64,000 bases of DNA, from positions 2,790,001 to 2,854,000 of the forward strand of contig NZ_CP080376.1 in the NCBI RefSeq assembly GCF_019443405.1, given 5' to 3'. Position numbers and translations under genes: made by a program. This document shows positions 7,149 to 12,683 of the stretch, one piece after another (within the stretch, counting starts at the first letter, position 1; the number at the start of each line of letters is the position of its first letter). The notes under the pieces are model-generated. The model saw only the letters and a list, made by a program, of their open reading frames with translations. It was not told the origin of the DNA and did no database searches. This DNA is from Brevundimonas sp. PAMC22021. GTDB lineage: Bacteria > Pseudomonadota > Alphaproteobacteria > Caulobacterales > Caulobacteraceae.

Positions 7149-7952
7149 ATGATGCACGTAGAGTTGGCTTCAACGCCGTTGAAGCGGTCTCTGCCGTCGG
7201 TTCCGGAGACGGTTCGCAGAGCGACAGTGCGGCCTACCCTCAAGGCGCCCAGCGAGGCGGTGGCCATCCGGGTTCTGGAAAGCGTCTGCACCCTCACCGA
7301 GGAAGAACGCGCCCTGATCCGCCGGCTGAGTGTTTTTCGTGAAACGATCCAGGCCGGACGCCCATTCTGGCGTCCGGGCCAGTCGGTCGGCGCCAAGATC
7401 ATCCTGAGCGGCTGGGCGGCGCGCCAGCGAACCCTGCCGGATGGTCGGCGCCAGATCTTCGGCTTCCTGCTGCCGGGCGACTCGATCGGCCTGCTGGGCG
7501 GCTCGTCGCCGCTGGACGAGGTTTCCACCGTCGCCCTGACGCGCGTTGAATGCATGGACGCGTTGATGCTGAGAGAGATCCTGGCGGTGGGCGATGTTCG
7601 CCACGCGCGTCTCGCCGAGTCGCTGAAGGGGCTGCGTCGGCAGGAAGACGCGGGATTGCTGGACCACATCATGCGGCTGGGCCGGCAGTCTGCGCTGGAG
7701 AGAACCGCGCACCTGTTCATGGAGATGCGCCAGCGGACCCGCGCCGCCGGTCTGTCCGAAGGCGACCGTTTTCCGCTTCCGCTGACCCAGGAAGTGCTGT
7801 CGGACGCCTTGGGCCTCAGCATCGTTCACCTGAACCGCACGCTTCAGCAGATGAAGCGCGACGCCCTGATCGAGATGCGCGCCGGCTGGATCACCCTGCT
7901 GGATGTGGGTTGCCTGAAGAACCTCGCGGACTACGGTCAGCACGACTACTGA
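7149..7952 (+). CDS. Crp/Fnr-family transcriptional regulator
   Basis: This 267-residue regulator has an N-terminal cyclic-nucleotide-binding-type beta-roll (residues about 50-150, including LSGWAARQRTLPDGRRQ and GFLLPGDSIGLL). The C-terminal winged helix contains LTQEVLSDALGLSIVHLNRT, the recognition helix region typical of Crp/Fnr proteins. There is no N-terminal cysteine cluster, so it is not an oxygen-sensing Fnr of the classical kind. It starts at ATG 7149 after GGGGGTGAC. A paralogue at 17758 shares the same signature stretches. It lies between a kinase/response-regulator pair and the Fap-like locus; regulation of that locus is an inference from position only. Confidence 0.9.
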   Translation: MMHVELASTPLKRSLPSVPETVRRATVRPTLKAPSEAVAIRVLESVCTLTEEERALIRRLSVFRETIQAGRPFWRPGQSVGAKIILSGWAARQRTLPDGRRQIFGFLLPGDSIGLLGGSSPLDEVSTVALTRVECMDALMLREILAVGDVRHARLAESLKGLRRQEDAGLLDHIMRLGRQSALERTAHLFMEMRQRTRAAGLSEGDRFPLPLTQEVLSDALGLSIVHLNRTLQQMKRDALIEMRAGWITLLDVGCLKNLADYGQHDY

Positions 7953-8054: not shown

Positions 8055-9365
8055 ATGGCGAGGCGGACCTTCAGGAGCGCAGTGGCCGCGGCGACGGCCT
8101 TGACCATGCTGGTCGCCCCGGTGGCGGCCTTCGCCCAGGATGAGGACGTGTCCGCACGTCTGGCGCGTCTCGAGGCGCTCGTCGCCAGTCAGCAGGCGCG
8201 CATCGAGGCGCAGGAAGCCCTGCTGGCGCAGCGCGCCGCGCCGGCGACGCAAGCCGCGACGCCGGGCATCCTCGACGCCTGGCGGGTTCAGCCCGAAGCC
8301 GTCCTGGCGAGCGAAACCGGCCGAGGACTGGCTCAGGAAGAAGGATCGACGCCCAGTGTAGTCGCGGCGACGCCCGCGGCGGGCGCGTCTTTGGCGGCCT
8401 CGGCCGACGACACGCCGCAGGCGCAGGCCGCGCCACCGGCGTTGAGCCGCCAGCGCGCAGAACTGGCCGCCATCCCCGAAGGCATGACGGTGCTCAGCCG
8501 CCCGGGTCGGTTCTCGTTCGACCTGTCGACCGACTACACGCGATCCTCGTCAAACCGGCTGGTGTTTCGCGGCATCGAAATCGTACCCGGCATCCAGATC
8601 GGCGTGATCGAGGCCAACGAAGCCGATCGCGACACCATCGGCGCGACCGTGGCCGGGCGCTTCGGCCTGACCGACCGGCTCGAGGTGGAAGCGCGCGTTC
8701 CGTATGTTCGTCGCAGCGACATCATCACCACCGTGCAGCAGCGAGATGAGGCGGTCACCCGCACCATCGACCTGAAGGGCGACGGCGTCGGCGACGTCGA
8801 GGCCGCCGTCCGATATCAGATCAATCGTGGCGAACGTGGCCGCCCTATCTTTGTCGGCACGCTTCGGGTCAAGAGCGACACCGGCGAAGGCCCGTTCGAC
8901 ATCGACCGAGACGAGTTCGGCGTGGCCACGCGCCTGGCGACCGGCTCGGGCTTCTGGGGCGTCGAGCCCAGCGTCTCCATGCTGTTCCCCAGCGACCCGG
9001 CGGTGATCTTCGCCAACCTGTCCTATTTCGCGCACCTGCCCAAGGACGTGAACATGCAGGAGGGCGACATCCTGGTGGGAGAGGTCGATCCGGGCGACAG
9101 CATCGGGGCGGCCATCGGCTTCGGCTTCGCCATGAATCAGAACTTCTCCTATTCGCTCGGCTACCGGCACAACTACATTCTGTCCACGACCAGCCAGCTG
9201 AACAACATCACGGAAGAGTCGGACGAACTGCAGGTCGGCACGCTGCAGTTCGGCATGTCCTACCGGTTCAACGACCGCTTCAGCCTGAACGGCAACTTCG
9301 AATTCGGCGTGACCGAGGATGCGCCGGACATGCGCTTCGTGTTGCGGGTGCCGCTGGTTTTCTGA
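8055..9365 (+). CDS. FapF-like outer membrane protein: coiled coil plus beta-barrel
   Basis: This exported 436-residue protein has a signal peptide (residues 1-28, ending AAFAQ). A short heptad-rich coiled coil follows at residues 32-60 (VSARLARLEALVASQQARIE). Next is an Ala/Pro-rich linker to about residue 130, and then a predicted transmembrane beta-barrel to the end. The protein ends in LRVPLVF with a terminal Phe, a usual BAM-recognition ending. Signal, trimerising coil, linker and 12-strand-type barrel match the architecture and approximate length of FapF, the Pseudomonas amyloid exporter. The linker holds ALSRQRAELAAIPEG (Glu136, Leu137, Ile140), similar to motifs in the neighbouring exported proteins. 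It converges with the peptidase operon and shares a bidirectional terminator with it. A generic MetA-pathway type barrel porin remains the alternative. Confidence 0.72.
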   Translation: MARRTFRSAVAAATALTMLVAPVAAFAQDEDVSARLARLEALVASQQARIEAQEALLAQRAAPATQAATPGILDAWRVQPEAVLASETGRGLAQEEGSTPSVVAATPAAGASLAASADDTPQAQAAPPALSRQRAELAAIPEGMTVLSRPGRFSFDLSTDYTRSSSNRLVFRGIEIVPGIQIGVIEANEADRDTIGATVAGRFGLTDRLEVEARVPYVRRSDIITTVQQRDEAVTRTIDLKGDGVGDVEAAVRYQINRGERGRPIFVGTLRVKSDTGEGPFDIDRDEFGVATRLATGSGFWGVEPSVSMLFPSDPAVIFANLSYFAHLPKDVNMQEGDILVGEVDPGDSIGAAIGFGFAMNQNFSYSLGYRHNYILSTTSQLNNITEESDELQVGTLQFGMSYRFNDRFSLNGNFEFGVTEDAPDMRFVLRVPLVF

Positions 9366-9390
9366 TCGGCCGGAGCGCCCCCAACGAAGA

Positions 9391-9425
9391 ACGGCCGCCG
9401 GGACAACCCGGCGGCCGTTTCCTTT
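9391..9425. terminator. Bidirectional intrinsic terminator
   Basis: A 12-base GC-rich inverted repeat (ACGGCCGCCGGG / CCCGGCGGCCGT) with a 4-base loop is followed by TTCCTTT on the plus strand and by TTCTTCGTT on the minus strand. It lies between two convergent genes and could stop transcription from both sides. Confidence 0.8.
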
Positions 9426-9443
9426 ATGTCGGCTGGGAAGGCC

Positions 9444-10052
9444 TCAGCGTCCGAGCAGCGAGGCGGCAGCCAGATCGCTGCTCATCTGGGCGCTCAGCCG
9501 ATCCCGGATCGATCCGGCCTGAAGCGCGTCAAGCTGCGGCAGGGCGAGATTGATCTCGACCTCCTGCCGCAGGTTGCGACCGTCGGCGTTGTTGACGATG
9601 ACGTTCTGGATGCCGTCGCGCCCGATGTTCTGGATCAGGGCCGTGGCGCCGGAGCCGTCGGCCAGCAGCACGCCTTGACCGGAACCCAAGGCCTGGATGT
9701 CCAGACCCGCCTTCAGCGCCTGGTCCATGGCTCCGGCCAGATCGACGGCTCCGGGCACCGAGCCGAGACTCTGGCTCGTCACAGCGCCCTGGTCGGTCCA
9801 CTGCAGGCGCGACTCCAGCGCCAGCTGCCCATCGACATAGGTGCGCACCACCGCTCCGAAATCCAGCTGTATGCCGCCCGCGACAAGAAAGCCGCCGCGC
9901 AACTCCGCGAGTTCAGCCGACGCCAAGGGAGCAGCCGACGGTATTTGCGCGATGACCGCCGGCGCCGACGCGTCCTGCGCCTGGGCGCCCGCGCCGAAGC
10001 CGGCCAGCACGGTTCCGGCAAGAAGAAGCCGGATGAGGCGATTGGGTGTCAT
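9444..10052 (-). CDS. Exported Fap-locus protein with double-glycine-type motif
   Basis: This 202-residue protein has a signal peptide ending GAGAQAQ (residue 26). It then has PLASAELAELRGG at residues 42-54, which matches the LSxxELxxIxGG leader motif recognised by C39 peptidases. The rest (FLVAGGIQLDFGAVVRTYV onward) is predicted to be beta-rich in its first half and amphipathic in its second. The start at ATG 10052 follows GAGGTGAGCCTG, only five bases after the C39 gene's stop, so the two are co-transcribed. I know no named family for it. Its place beside the C39 peptidase suggests it is a FapE-like accessory or minor subunit processed by the peptidase. Confidence 0.7.
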   Translation of the reverse strand: MTPNRLIRLLLAGTVLAGFGAGAQAQDASAPAVIAQIPSAAPLASAELAELRGGFLVAGGIQLDFGAVVRTYVDGQLALESRLQWTDQGAVTSQSLGSVPGAVDLAGAMDQALKAGLDIQALGSGQGVLLADGSGATALIQNIGRDGIQNVIVNNADGRNLRQEVEINLALPQLDALQAGSIRDRLSAQMSSDLAAASLLGR

Positions 10053-10057
10053 CAGGC

Positions 10058-10777
10058 TCACCTCAGGTAGCTGTCGAGCGAAAAGCTGGTGCTGATCTGG
10101 TAGAGGGGGGGCAACTGGAGCGTCATCGCGGACAGGGAATTGTCCGGCAGGGCCGTCGCCATCGGCGCCGGCGCCCAGGGCTTCCATTCGCCGTCCTGGT
10201 TGTAGCGATCCGCCGGATCACGGATCATGAAGGCCACGCCGTTCCACATCTCGGTGAACTGCTCGTGGGTGTAGATCTTCAGCCCCAGGGCGGGATCGCC
10301 AACCAGGACGCGGGTCGCATCCACGCCCTTCAGCACCACGAAATGCTTGTAGCCATTGGTGTTGACCATGACGATCGCCGGCGAATGGCTGTCTTCCAAC
10401 TCCTTCAACGTCAGGCGAAAGCCGTCAGAGGCGAAGCCGTGGACGTCTAGAAACCGCTTCATGTCCAGAAGCGAAAAGCCGACGCGGGTGATTTCTTCCT
10501 GATTGCCGGTGTCGTACATCGCCTTGAAGACGGTCTTTTCATCGACATCGCGGTCGTAGTGGAAGCGCAGCAGCGTCGCCAGGGCGGCCGAGCCGCAGGA
10601 AAAATCGTACTGCTGGCGCACCACGGTGCGGAACGGCGTGTCGCGATAGCTGACGACATTGACGCTCATCTGGCCGGGCGCGGTGTTCAGCAACACCTGG
10701 GCATGGGCCGACGGGGCCTCCAGGGCAAGTACGCCAACCGTCAGGGCGCAGATTGCGATCTGGAAGGCCGTCCGCAT
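10058..10777 (-). CDS. Exported C39-family peptidase-like protein (FapD-like)
   Basis: This 239-residue protein has a signal peptide (about residues 1-27, ending SAHAQ) followed by a papain-like C39 domain. The catalytic set is complete: Gln and Cys61 in RQQYDFSCGSAA, His145 in GYKHFVVLKG and Asp161 in VLVGDPALG. C39 domains of ABC transporters cut double-glycine leaders in the cytoplasm, whereas this one carries an export signal and no transporter domain, as FapD does in Pseudomonas. GFSLLDMKRFL and the MWNGVAFMIR ending are features I associate with FapD-type proteins. The ATG at 10777 overlaps the upstream stop (TGATG), showing translational coupling. Likely substrates are the neighbouring exported proteins with GG-like motifs. 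Confidence 0.82.
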   Translation of the reverse strand: MRTAFQIAICALTVGVLALEAPSAHAQVLLNTAPGQMSVNVVSYRDTPFRTVVRQQYDFSCGSAALATLLRFHYDRDVDEKTVFKAMYDTGNQEEITRVGFSLLDMKRFLDVHGFASDGFRLTLKELEDSHSPAIVMVNTNGYKHFVVLKGVDATRVLVGDPALGLKIYTHEQFTEMWNGVAFMIRDPADRYNQDGEWKPWAPAPMATALPDNSLSAMTLQLPPLYQISTSFSLDSYLR

Positions 10778-11184
10778 CACGGGAAGGTCACCGGGGCCTG
10801 AATGTTGACGGTCAGCGCGCCCTGAAGGTTGTTGTTCTGGCCGCTGTTGATGACGAAATTGCCGACACCGGCGAAGCCGTCGAAGGCGCCGGGACCGATG
10901 GAGATCTGGCCGGCGGTGACGGTGTTGGCGTTGATGGTGTTGCCCTGACTGATCGCCGTCAGCTCCTGGCTGCTCAGGATGTTGTTGGTGGTCACGCCCT
11001 GCTTGCCGTGAAGGTCGGCGAGTTCGTCCAGGGCCAAGGGCTCCGGCGTCTTGGTGGGCGTCGAAACAGAAGCGGGCGCCTTGGCCGTGACGGACGCCTG
11101 CGGCGTCGCCTCCAGAACCTGGGCGTAGAGGGATGTCGGGGCCGCGATCGCGATCGCCGCCAGCATTAGGGCCGTGGTTCGCAT
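10777..11184 (-). CDS. Small exported Fap-locus protein, possible minor fibre subunit
   Basis: This 135-residue protein has a signal peptide ending SLYAQ (residue 22). A Thr/Pro/Ala spacer follows, then PLALDELADLHGK (residues 49-61), with E, L, L and G spaced exactly as in the double-glycine motif of the protein at 9444. The mature part is uncharged and Asn/Gln/Gly-rich (NNILSSQELTAISQGNTINA; INSGQNNNLQGALTVNI), typical of amyloid-type subunits. Its GAFDGFAGVGNFVINSG segment resembles GAYAGFAGIQTVTNNTG in the C-terminus of the large repeat protein, so the two probably share an assembly module. It is translationally coupled to the C39 gene. The start ATG at 11184 follows GAGG. I propose a nucleator or minor subunit role (inference). 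Confidence 0.7.
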   Translation of the reverse strand: MRTTALMLAAIAIAAPTSLYAQVLEATPQASVTAKAPASVSTPTKTPEPLALDELADLHGKQGVTTNNILSSQELTAISQGNTINANTVTAGQISIGPGAFDGFAGVGNFVINSGQNNNLQGALTVNIQAPVTFP

Positions 11185-11201
11185 GAGAGCCTCCTGAACT
11201 A

Positions 11202-11239
11202 GAAAAAAGAAGGGTCGGAGCCCGCGAAGGCTCCGACCC
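11202..11239 (-). terminator. Intrinsic terminator downstream of repeat-protein gene
   Basis: On the minus strand, GGGTCGGAGCC, a six-base loop and GGCTCCGACCC form an 11-base perfect stem followed by TTCTTTTTT. It sits just after the stop of the 11250-12683 gene and before the start of the 135-residue protein gene. It would give an abundant monocistronic subunit mRNA with limited readthrough into the assembly genes. Confidence 0.88.
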
Positions 11240-11249
11240 TCCGTTGGGT

Positions 11250-12683
11250 TTACTGACCCGAGCCGCCGCCGAAGCTGACGTTGGCGTTGGCCGTGACCGC
11301 CGTCGCCGCTTGGCCCAGCGAGCCGAAGCCGGTGTTGTTGGTCACCGTCTGGATACCCGCGAAGCCGGCGTAGGCGCCGCCTTCGGCGACGATCGCGCCG
11401 GTGTTCAGGCTGCCGTTCTGATCGCCTTCGCCATCACCGCCGAGGCCGGCGCTGATGTTGCTGACCGAGCCGCTCAGCTCCTGCATCGACATGGCCGTGC
11501 GGGTGCTGGAGTTGTCGGTGTTGACCGAGTTGTCGTTGCCCGAGCCGTCCACCGAGTTGTCGTTGTACGAGTCGGCGACGTCCACCGAGTTGTCGGAGTT
11601 GTCGTCGTTCGAGGAGTTGTCGTCGTTGCTCGAGTTGTCGGTGTTCGTCGAGTTGTCGTCGTTGCTCGAGTTGTCGTTGAACGAACCGTCAACCGAATTG
11701 TCGGTCGTCGAGTTGTCCGAGCTATCCGAGTTGTCGTCGTTGCTCGAATTGTCGTTGAACGATCCGTTGACCGAGCTGTCGTTGCCCGAGTCGGCAGTGG
11801 AGTTGTCGTTGCCGGAGTCGGTGACGTCGTTGCTCGAATTGTCGTTATAGGAGCCGTTCACCGAACCATCGGTGGTCGAGTTGTCGTCGTTGCTGGAGTT
11901 GTCGGTGTTGGTCGAGTTGTCATTACCCGAATCCGCAACCGAGTTGTCGACGCTCGAGTTGTCGTCGTTGCTCGAATTATCGGTGTTCGTCGAGTTGTCG
12001 TCGTTGCTCGAGTTGTCATTGAAGGACCCGTCGATCGAGCTGTCGTTGCCGGAGTCGGCCGTCGAGTTGTCGTTGTTCGAGTCGCTCACGTTGGTCGAGC
12101 TGTCGTTGCCCGAGTCGGCGATGTCGGTCGAGTTGTCGTTGCCCGAATCGGCGACGTCGTTGCTCGAGTTGTCATTGCCCGAGTCGGCGATCGAGTTGTC
12201 GGTCGTGGAGTTGTCCGCGTAGGTCGAATTGTCGTCGTTGCTGGAGTTGTCGTTGCCGGAGTCCGCCACCGAGTTGTCGGTCGTGGAGTTGTCCGCGTAG
12301 GTCGAGTTGTCGTCATTGCTCGAGTTGTCGTCGTTGCTCGAGTTGTTGTCGTTGCTCGAGTTGTCATCCATGCTCGAGTTGTCGGTGTTGGTCGAGTTGT
12401 CGTCCATGCTCGAATTGTCGTTGAACGATCCGTTGGTCGAGCTGTCGTTACCCGAGTCGGCAACCGAGTTGTCGTTGCCGGAATCCGCCGTGCTGGTGGA
12501 GTTGTCGGAGTTGTCGTTGCCCGATCCGTCAGCCGAGGCGTCGTTGCCCGAGTTCGACGTGTTGGTCGAGTTGTCGTTATAGGAGTCCGTAGGCGACGGG
12601 GTCGTCGACTGCGCGGAAGCGACTTGGCCGTAGGCCAACAGCGCGGTCAGCGCCATTGCCGAGGTCATGAGTCTGGCTTTCAT
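11250..12683 (-). CDS. Exported Asn/Asp/Ser-repeat protein, putative major extracellular fibre or matrix subunit
   Basis: This 477-residue protein has a signal peptide (residues 1-25, ending VASAQ). About 360 residues (31-392) follow that are built almost only from Asn, Asp, Ser, Thr, Gly and Val, with rare Ala, Tyr, Phe, Ile and Met. The motif DNS recurs every 6-9 residues (units such as DNSSND, DNSTNT, DNSVADSGN). I see no Lys, Arg, His, Glu, Gln, Cys, Trp or Leu in this block, so it is very strongly acidic. The C-terminal 85 residues (from about 393) are ordinary sequence with MSMQELSGS, GAYAGFAGIQTVTNNTG and a final TANANVSF, related to the C-terminus of the 135-residue neighbour. Position and C-terminal kinship suggest the secreted structural subunit of the Fap-like locus. 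A calcium-binding or adhesive matrix protein is the alternative. Confidence 0.75.
   Translation of the reverse strand: MKARLMTSAMALTALLAYGQVASAQSTTPSPTDSYNDNSTNTSNSGNDASADGSGNDNSDNSTSTADSGNDNSVADSGNDSSTNGSFNDNSSMDDNSTNTDNSSMDDNSSNDNNSSNDDNSSNDDNSTYADNSTTDNSVADSGNDNSSNDDNSTYADNSTTDNSIADSGNDNSSNDVADSGNDNSTDIADSGNDSSTNVSDSNNDNSTADSGNDSSIDGSFNDNSSNDDNSTNTDNSSNDDNSSVDNSVADSGNDNSTNTDNSSNDDNSTTDGSVNGSYNDNSSNDVTDSGNDNSTADSGNDSSVNGSFNDNSSNDDNSDSSDNSTTDNSVDGSFNDNSSNDDNSTNTDNSSNDDNSSNDDNSDNSVDVADSYNDNSVDGSGNDNSVNTDNSSTRTAMSMQELSGSVSNISAGLGGDGEGDQNGSLNTGAIVAEGGAYAGFAGIQTVTNNTGFGSLGQAATAVTANANVSFGGGSGQ
11505..12590. repeat. Tandem degenerate short-repeat block inside the acidic repeat gene
   Basis: On the plus strand GAGTTGTCGTCGTTGCTC-type 18-base units and GAGTTGTCGTTGCCCGAGTC-type longer units recur with synonymous changes (GAG/GAA, TTG/CTG), encoding the DNS repeats on the minus strand. 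Near-identical units, such as the repeated GAGTTGTCCGCGTAGGTCGA at about 12209 and 12287, could allow length change by recombination or slippage. The repeat keeps the plus strand open too, which explains a spurious long antisense reading frame. Confidence 0.9.

Follow-up and report, generated by a model that had tools for sequence, protein, structure and literature searches.

The described systems that come closest to the locus in this report are Fap of Pseudomonas (fapABCDEF), the putative pilus system Fil (FilA/B/C), and the C39-ABC exporters. In the Fap system, the peptidase FapD is periplasmic, and the C38A substitution abolishes secretion of FapC (Rouse et al. 2017, PMC5557850). In the passages of that paper that deal with its target, FapD was said in 2017 to have an unclear target and the Fap proteins to be without canonical C39 sequences, while FapE and FapF were noted to contain GG and GA motifs. 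The same passages report no peptides from the first ~70 residues of FapE, propose that FapE loses a FapF targeting sequence, and read the peptides seen throughout FapA as no processing. A 2023 paper speaks of FapC as the FapD substrate (PMC10638192), and a review of December 2025, in the section concerned, describes FapD as thought to process the FapE N terminus and the periplasmic region of FapF and leaves the site unnamed (PMC12822426). In open-licence PMC papers we found no published periplasmic double-glycine or FapD cut site; in a search of open-licence PMC papers for Fap in related alphaproteobacteria, none of the matches listed had FapC.

The window analyzed here, a 64-kb stretch of DNA, contains at 8055-12683 what is, judged by its proteins' sequences, an alphaproteobacterial Fap-like amyloid-secretion system that is not canonical Fap (Table 1). 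Genes for a long repeat protein, a small exported protein (S2), a C39 peptidase, and a second small exported protein (S1) are transcribed in that order from the minus strand, and the gene for an outer-membrane barrel lies on the plus strand. In common with Fap of Pseudomonas, a Sec-exported C39 peptidase is encoded beside a FapF-type barrel gene, and a small exported protein directly after fapD has the same motif in the same place. The locus differs from Fap in that the barrel gene has the opposite orientation, S2 has no FapA profile match, and the candidate amyloid is an N/D/S repeat protein for which no Pfam or NCBIfam match was found; this protein is a probable amyloid subunit by its position and composition. 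We call the system Fap-like because the barrel and peptidase matches all fall below the NCBIfam cut-offs (equivalog cut-offs for FapD and FapF): the peptidase scores 151.2 bits against FapD (cut-off 330) and 133.8 against FilB (475), and the barrel, in addition to its FapF score, 82.2 against FilC (630). The pair FapD and FapF that would mark canonical Fap is thus absent at those cut-offs, and so is the pair FilB and FilC that would mark Fil. S1 and S2 have no FilA match in NCBIfam, although in FilA-like proteins the signal peptide is followed by a related motif. Immediately upstream of the barrel gene lies a gene for a Crp-type regulator (7149-7952; cNMP_binding and HTH_Crp_2), which may control the Fap-like system.

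Table 1. Features of the Fap-like locus, in positions of the window.
Feature	Position	Strand	Basis
FapF-like outer-membrane barrel	8055..9365	+	NCBIfam FapF NF058560, 132.9 bits (cut-off 700)
S1, FapE-like small Sec-exported protein, 202 aa, start MTPNRL	9444..10052	-	core family, 80 non-redundant members
S1 Sec signal peptide, ~residues 1-25	9978..10052	-	by inspection
S1 second leader motif LASAELAELRGG, residues 43-54, predicted cut after Gly54	9891..9926	-	family conservation, profile score, predicted helix 45-52
FapD-like C39 cysteine peptidase, own Sec signal (by inspection), without ABC part	10058..10780	-	
S2, small Sec-exported protein, 135 aa, directly upstream of peptidase gene	10777..11184	-	core family, 96 non-redundant members
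S2 Sec signal peptide, ~residues 1-21	11122..11184	-	by inspection
S2 second leader motif LALDELADLHGK, residues 50-61, predicted cut after Lys61	11002..11037	-	family conservation, profile score
Long N/D/S-rich repeat protein, probable amyloid subunit, without leader motif	11250..12683	-	position and composition

The peptidase matches Pfam C39 at 73.8 bits (cut-off 22), the sole domain above a Pfam cut-off in this 240-aa protein and the sole C39 match in the whole genome from which the window comes. The peptidase gene, whose product has a Sec signal by inspection, lies between those for S1 and S2, in favour of the original prediction for these two proteins. Its catalytic cysteine is correctly given there as Cys61 when counted from the ATG at 10777, and is residue 62 from the GTG at 10780. 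In the latter numbering, the catalytic C62, H146, and D162 are invariant in 40 aligned peptidases, which were drawn from a list requiring SCG, one of the searches for relatives having used a pattern that included this cysteine. Without the SCG filter, the peptidase frames of all 137 loci other than the window show the Cys, His-Phe, and Asp-Pro, identified by pattern or, in exceptional cases, by eye. The modelled fold resembles those of double-glycine peptidases, the nearest in a fold search being PCAT1, ComA, and the leader-bound structure 6mpz. The C39-ABC exporters share with the present system this peptidase fold and the leader consensus, LSX2ELX2IXGG (as cited in PMC3897388). They differ in that the window peptidase is Sec-exported and is not fused to an ABC permease and ATPase, and in that a Sec signal precedes the leader in its putative substrates. 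Because of that order, and because the peptidase has a Sec signal of its own, a cut would be periplasmic. The best match to the window peptidase among named records is from a Brevundimonas MAG (64% identical).

S1 carries PLASAELAELRGG, with GG at residues 53-54, and S2 carries PLALDELADLHGK, with Gly60-Lys61. As originally claimed, both carry, after the signal peptide, a motif of identical internal spacing, with Leu at positions -12, -7, and -4, Glu at -8, and Gly at -2. S1 conforms to the double-glycine pattern (-12, -8, -7, -4, -2, and -1, ending in GG, GA, or GS) throughout, and S2 does so at every position except -1, which is Lys. With a profile trained on named loci only, the two highest scores among the 73 signal-peptide-like open reading frames (ORFs) in the window, as picked by our own heuristic and not by SignalP, are those of S1 (24.4) and S2 (18.1); the next is 9.5. 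A smaller profile of 51 motifs from a second set of loci gives 23.9 for S1, but for the window S2 its highest score (8.7) falls outside the motif, whereas the profile of 117 motifs from the named loci places the best score there. The S1 model has a predicted helix at 45-52 between a low-confidence N terminus and a folded core that is confident from about residue 55-60, and the fold search with this model found nothing in the PDB with an E value of 0.001 or below. S1 and S2 have a C-terminal stretch of 30 columns in common (97% by profile comparison).

The families of S1 and S2 were collected with profiles started from the window sequence downstream of the motif, so that the motif itself was outside the query. 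The pool searched comprised 1912 signal-peptide-like ORFs around 138 FapD-like loci, the window included, some genes being missed or cut owing to wrong heuristic starts; it gave 80 non-redundant members of 86 for S1 and 96 of 103 for S2. In the S1 family, where the counts omit matches whose core alignment began after profile position 5, position -7 is Leu in 75 and Met in 4 of 79, -3 is Arg in 75/79, -2 is Gly in 72 and Ala in 7 of 79, -1 is Gly in 78/80, and +1 is Phe in 66/80; Glu at -8 is found in 46/79. At -4, which is hydrophobic in classic leaders, only 45/79 have Leu or Met. Columns -7, -3, -2, and -1 hold 3.1 to 3.9 bits and column +1 holds 3.7, against at most 1.15 in upstream columns 20-45 (n=80), and in a 54-row alignment four of the five columns conserved at 90% or more, Met1 aside, are motif positions. 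The 96 members of the S2 family have Leu (85) or Met (11) at -7 and Gly (74) or Ala (22) at -2; at -1, 41 of 92 have Gly, 31 Arg, and 11 Lys. The stretch preceding the motif is poorly conserved in both families, and the distance from the estimated end of the signal peptide to -1 is variable, with a median of 28 in S1 and 35 in S2.

Two further comparisons were made across loci. A pattern of six points, set in advance according to the published leader consensus and passed at five points or more, is found in genes directly downstream of fapD in 34/49 cases in the second set and 47/65 in the named set (shuffles, 17.7 and 19.0%), compared with 16/97 distant signal-peptide ORFs. Directly upstream of fapD it is found in 24/55 and 23/71 genes (shuffles, 13.5 and 15.8%), only a moderate signal in the named loci, and in long FapC-like upstream genes in 2/18, against 9.3% in shuffles. 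Profiles were also trained on one set of loci and tested on the other at a threshold passed by 1% of shuffles. With overlapping loci removed (L119 is L032, and L189 is close to L096 and L097), 64/70 and 23/26 S1 proteins pass, as do 50/65 and 25/28 S2 proteins; with overlaps kept, the figures are 65/71 and 27/30 for S1 and 53/66 and 26/29 for S2. Several of the failures are cut gene starts or near-threshold variants. Only 4/144 long upstream ORFs, mostly of FapB, FapC, or repeat type, score above 8, all four of them in the outgroup loci described below. Absence of conservation at the E, L, and G positions had been named beforehand as an argument against leaders; both family columns and held-out profiles show these positions kept in S1 and S2 and the upstream flank not, so that argument falls away, and at the level of sequence the double-glycine-type motif in S1 and S2 is real and conserved.

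The original prediction listed four strings as possible leaders, one for each of four proteins, and all four are present in the sequence. The two in S1 and S2 stand as candidate C39 substrate sites, and the two in the repeat protein and the window barrel do not. MSMQELSGS in the repeat protein, aligned by eye, coincides with a conserved strand of that protein's own C-terminal module, which is found also in the S2 core; the module is conserved in neighbours, and the whole protein reaches a motif profile score of only -2.8. The C-terminal module of the repeat protein, viewed by eye, looks like the S2 core. At ELAAIPEG in the barrel linker (profile score, 3.3), neighbours keep A-[AS]-[ILV]-P or similar, followed by VLT or VLS, and have no conserved Gly. 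The original prediction also passed over the Fap-like nature of the locus and with it the motif in FapE, to which we now turn.

FapD exceeds its NCBIfam cut-off in 9/397 phylum-wide genomes, and the loci of 4 of these 9 were fetched. Among 20 loci fetched, we call canonical-type the 13 with FapD at 204 bits or more, 4 of which are above the cut-off. In one of them, L081, the first gene matches NCBIfam FapA (171.8; cut-off 110), and the gene after fapD matches FapE, its first 130 residues scoring 214 bits against a cut-off of 250. Downstream of fapD, 11 of the 13 canonical-type loci yielded a FapE, none being picked in L090 and L091, and all 11 have the motif after the signal peptide. Here the motif ends in G-R or G-K followed by Tyr or Phe; ten of the 11 have Arg or Lys and no Gly at -1, and Lys occurs in the eleventh as well. 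These basic residues at -1, which many S2 proteins share, distinguish the sites from classic C39 sites. A search with the FapE core gave 38 matches, of which 26 are upstream and represent drift to FapB/C-like proteins; the 12 downstream of fapD (the 11 canonical-type proteins and that of L044) all carry the motif. The S1 family profile matches that of FapE (95.6%, E 1.3e-8) across the signal peptide, the motif, and the start of the core, mainly in the first two. The window S1 itself has no FapE match, and among 54 members of its family there are 8 that match FapE with an E value of 0.1 or less, the best at 2.3e-6. Since the same signal marks the FapE of canonical-type fap operons, the motif is probably the site that FapD recognizes and cuts.

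A relationship of S2 to FapA was considered and is not supported, the profile comparison with nine FapA proteins giving a probability of only 0.3%; one of 48 S2-family members weakly matches each of two FapA models (E 0.025 and 0.046). By eye, LSDxDF...SG or a near form is seen in 7 of 9 aligned canonical FapA proteins and another form in two, which weakly suggests that FapA bears a weaker form of the motif, weakly because only 2/9 are above the motif profile threshold.

Among 149 genomes of the same family, 40 have a FapD-model match, which is at least 136 bits in 17; most of the matches below 136 bits sit in frames of ABC-transporter size. The S1 profile matches in 17 of the 149 genomes. Sixteen of these matches have E below 1e-32, and each of the 16 is in a genome with the stronger FapD match; the seventeenth (3e-4) is in a 1113-residue frame. 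In G071 (locus L044), the one genome with FapD of at least 136 bits and no S1 match, the protein encoded after fapD still bears EMDKQDMSEQRGGY. In a sample of 20 fetched loci, relatives of S2, peptidase, S1, and barrel occur together in 14, five loci have peptidase and barrel only, and L032 is cut by a contig end. L096 has S2- and S1-type genes twice, with two equal FapD matches, and L085 has two FapD matches with repeated FapB/C-like genes.

The motif extends to an outgroup of 11 loci with weaker FapD matches (85-122 bits), 10 of which encode at least one signal-peptide protein bearing it; no signal-peptide ORF in the remaining locus, L111, passes the motif profile. Overall 18/51 outgroup ORFs pass, compared with 6/197 control ORFs at a distance of over 4.2 kb from the peptidase gene; at least two of these six (the FapE of L085 and a FilA-like protein of L116) belong to such systems themselves. 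Among the outgroup proteins with the motif are a FilA-like DUF6160 protein and small proteins encoded in tandem, whose motifs are of the LxDxxMDxxTAG type. Arrays of small Sec-exported proteins, each with such a motif just after the signal peptide, lie near a distant FapD-like peptidase in L048 (five proteins, -2298 to -185 from the start of the C39 match, oriented) and L117 (four proteins, -2426 to -639); the four array proteins scanned had no NCBIfam match better than E 0.04. Among barrel proteins, 21/120 pass the motif profile within the first 190 residues, where about 1 is expected, suggesting lineage-specific processing of the pore by FapD, which agrees with an earlier proposal that FapF may be a target of FapD. 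The motif lies in the N-terminal or linker part of the FapF-like proteins of L192, L170, L168, L180, L098, L101, and others.

Conservation, position, genetic linkage, the C39 fold, and the catalytic residues together point to S1 and S2 as proteins with two leaders, and we infer that the second is kept for a periplasmic C39 peptidase. The Sec signal would bring both proteins to the periplasm, where the Sec-exported FapD-like peptidase would bind the second leader, L-x3-E-L-x2-L-x-G-[G/K], which in S1 is predicted to form a short helix before the folded core. Cutting after G-G in S1 or G-K in S2 would release residues 55-202 of S1 and 62-135 of S2 as cores, and the freed cores would act with the FapF-like barrel in secreting the repeat amyloid protein. 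We consider this course of events quite probable as a whole. Published results in its favour are the loss of FapC secretion with C38A and the lack of peptides from the first ~70 residues of FapE. Counting against it are the FapA peptides that Rouse et al. saw along the whole protein, the naming of FapC as substrate in the 2023 paper, the Arg or Lys at -1 in FapE and many S2 proteins, the low share of Leu or Met at -4 in S1, the moderate signal directly upstream of fapD in the named loci, the FapD and FapF scores below cut-off, and a FapE profile match that lies mainly in signal peptide and motif.

An unlikely alternative, in our judgment, is that the motif stays uncut at the Gly pair and is a signal for docking or for targeting to the outer membrane, directed to FapF or to FapD in the role of a chaperone. 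The variation at -1 (G, R, or K) would fit such a role, as would the conserved aromatic residue at +1, which a pure cut site does not need, and inactive C39-like domains exist, 3zua being among the fold matches; the removal of a FapF targeting sequence from FapE, suggested by Rouse et al. (PMC5557850), can be read in the same direction. However, the catalytic Cys, His, and Asp are kept, the C38A substitution described in the same paper abolishes secretion, and the pattern matches that of the substrate leaders of active C39 enzymes (consensus cited in PMC3897388). Still less likely is a structural N-cap retained for the folding of S1 and S2. The motif does sit immediately ahead of the core, and the S1 model has a short strand beginning at residue 55, but both proteins have the motif and yet share only the 30-column C-terminal stretch by profile, other outgroup proteins have it too, and the model is less confident at the motif (blocks of 75 and 65) than in the core (mostly 87-97). 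Chance resemblance in Ala-rich exported proteins is hardly credible: the string is short, and shuffles reach five of the six points in 13-19% of cases, but the held-out tests, the controls, and the conservation counts all stand against it.

With processing at the second leader as the preferred reading, the proteolytic activity of FapD, which is needed for the secretion of functional amyloid, gains a specific candidate site in the FapE motif. A site conserved at the level of residues in FapE and in S2-type proteins makes the target of FapD testable with a few loss-of-function point mutants. Cleavage by FapD at this motif would carry the processing of double-glycine leaders beyond the cytoplasm, into the periplasm. 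It is possible, though we hold it somewhat less probable than its opposite, that Sec export followed by a double-glycine step is a general outer-membrane route, built from a periplasmic C39 peptidase of the FapD or FilB type and a barrel of the FapF or FilC type, and serving, in addition to FapE- and S2-type proteins, the LxDxxMDxxTAG arrays and, in certain lineages, the linker of the barrel itself. Cargo on such a route would be tagged by a Sec signal and a second leader, whose removal would open or complete secretion.
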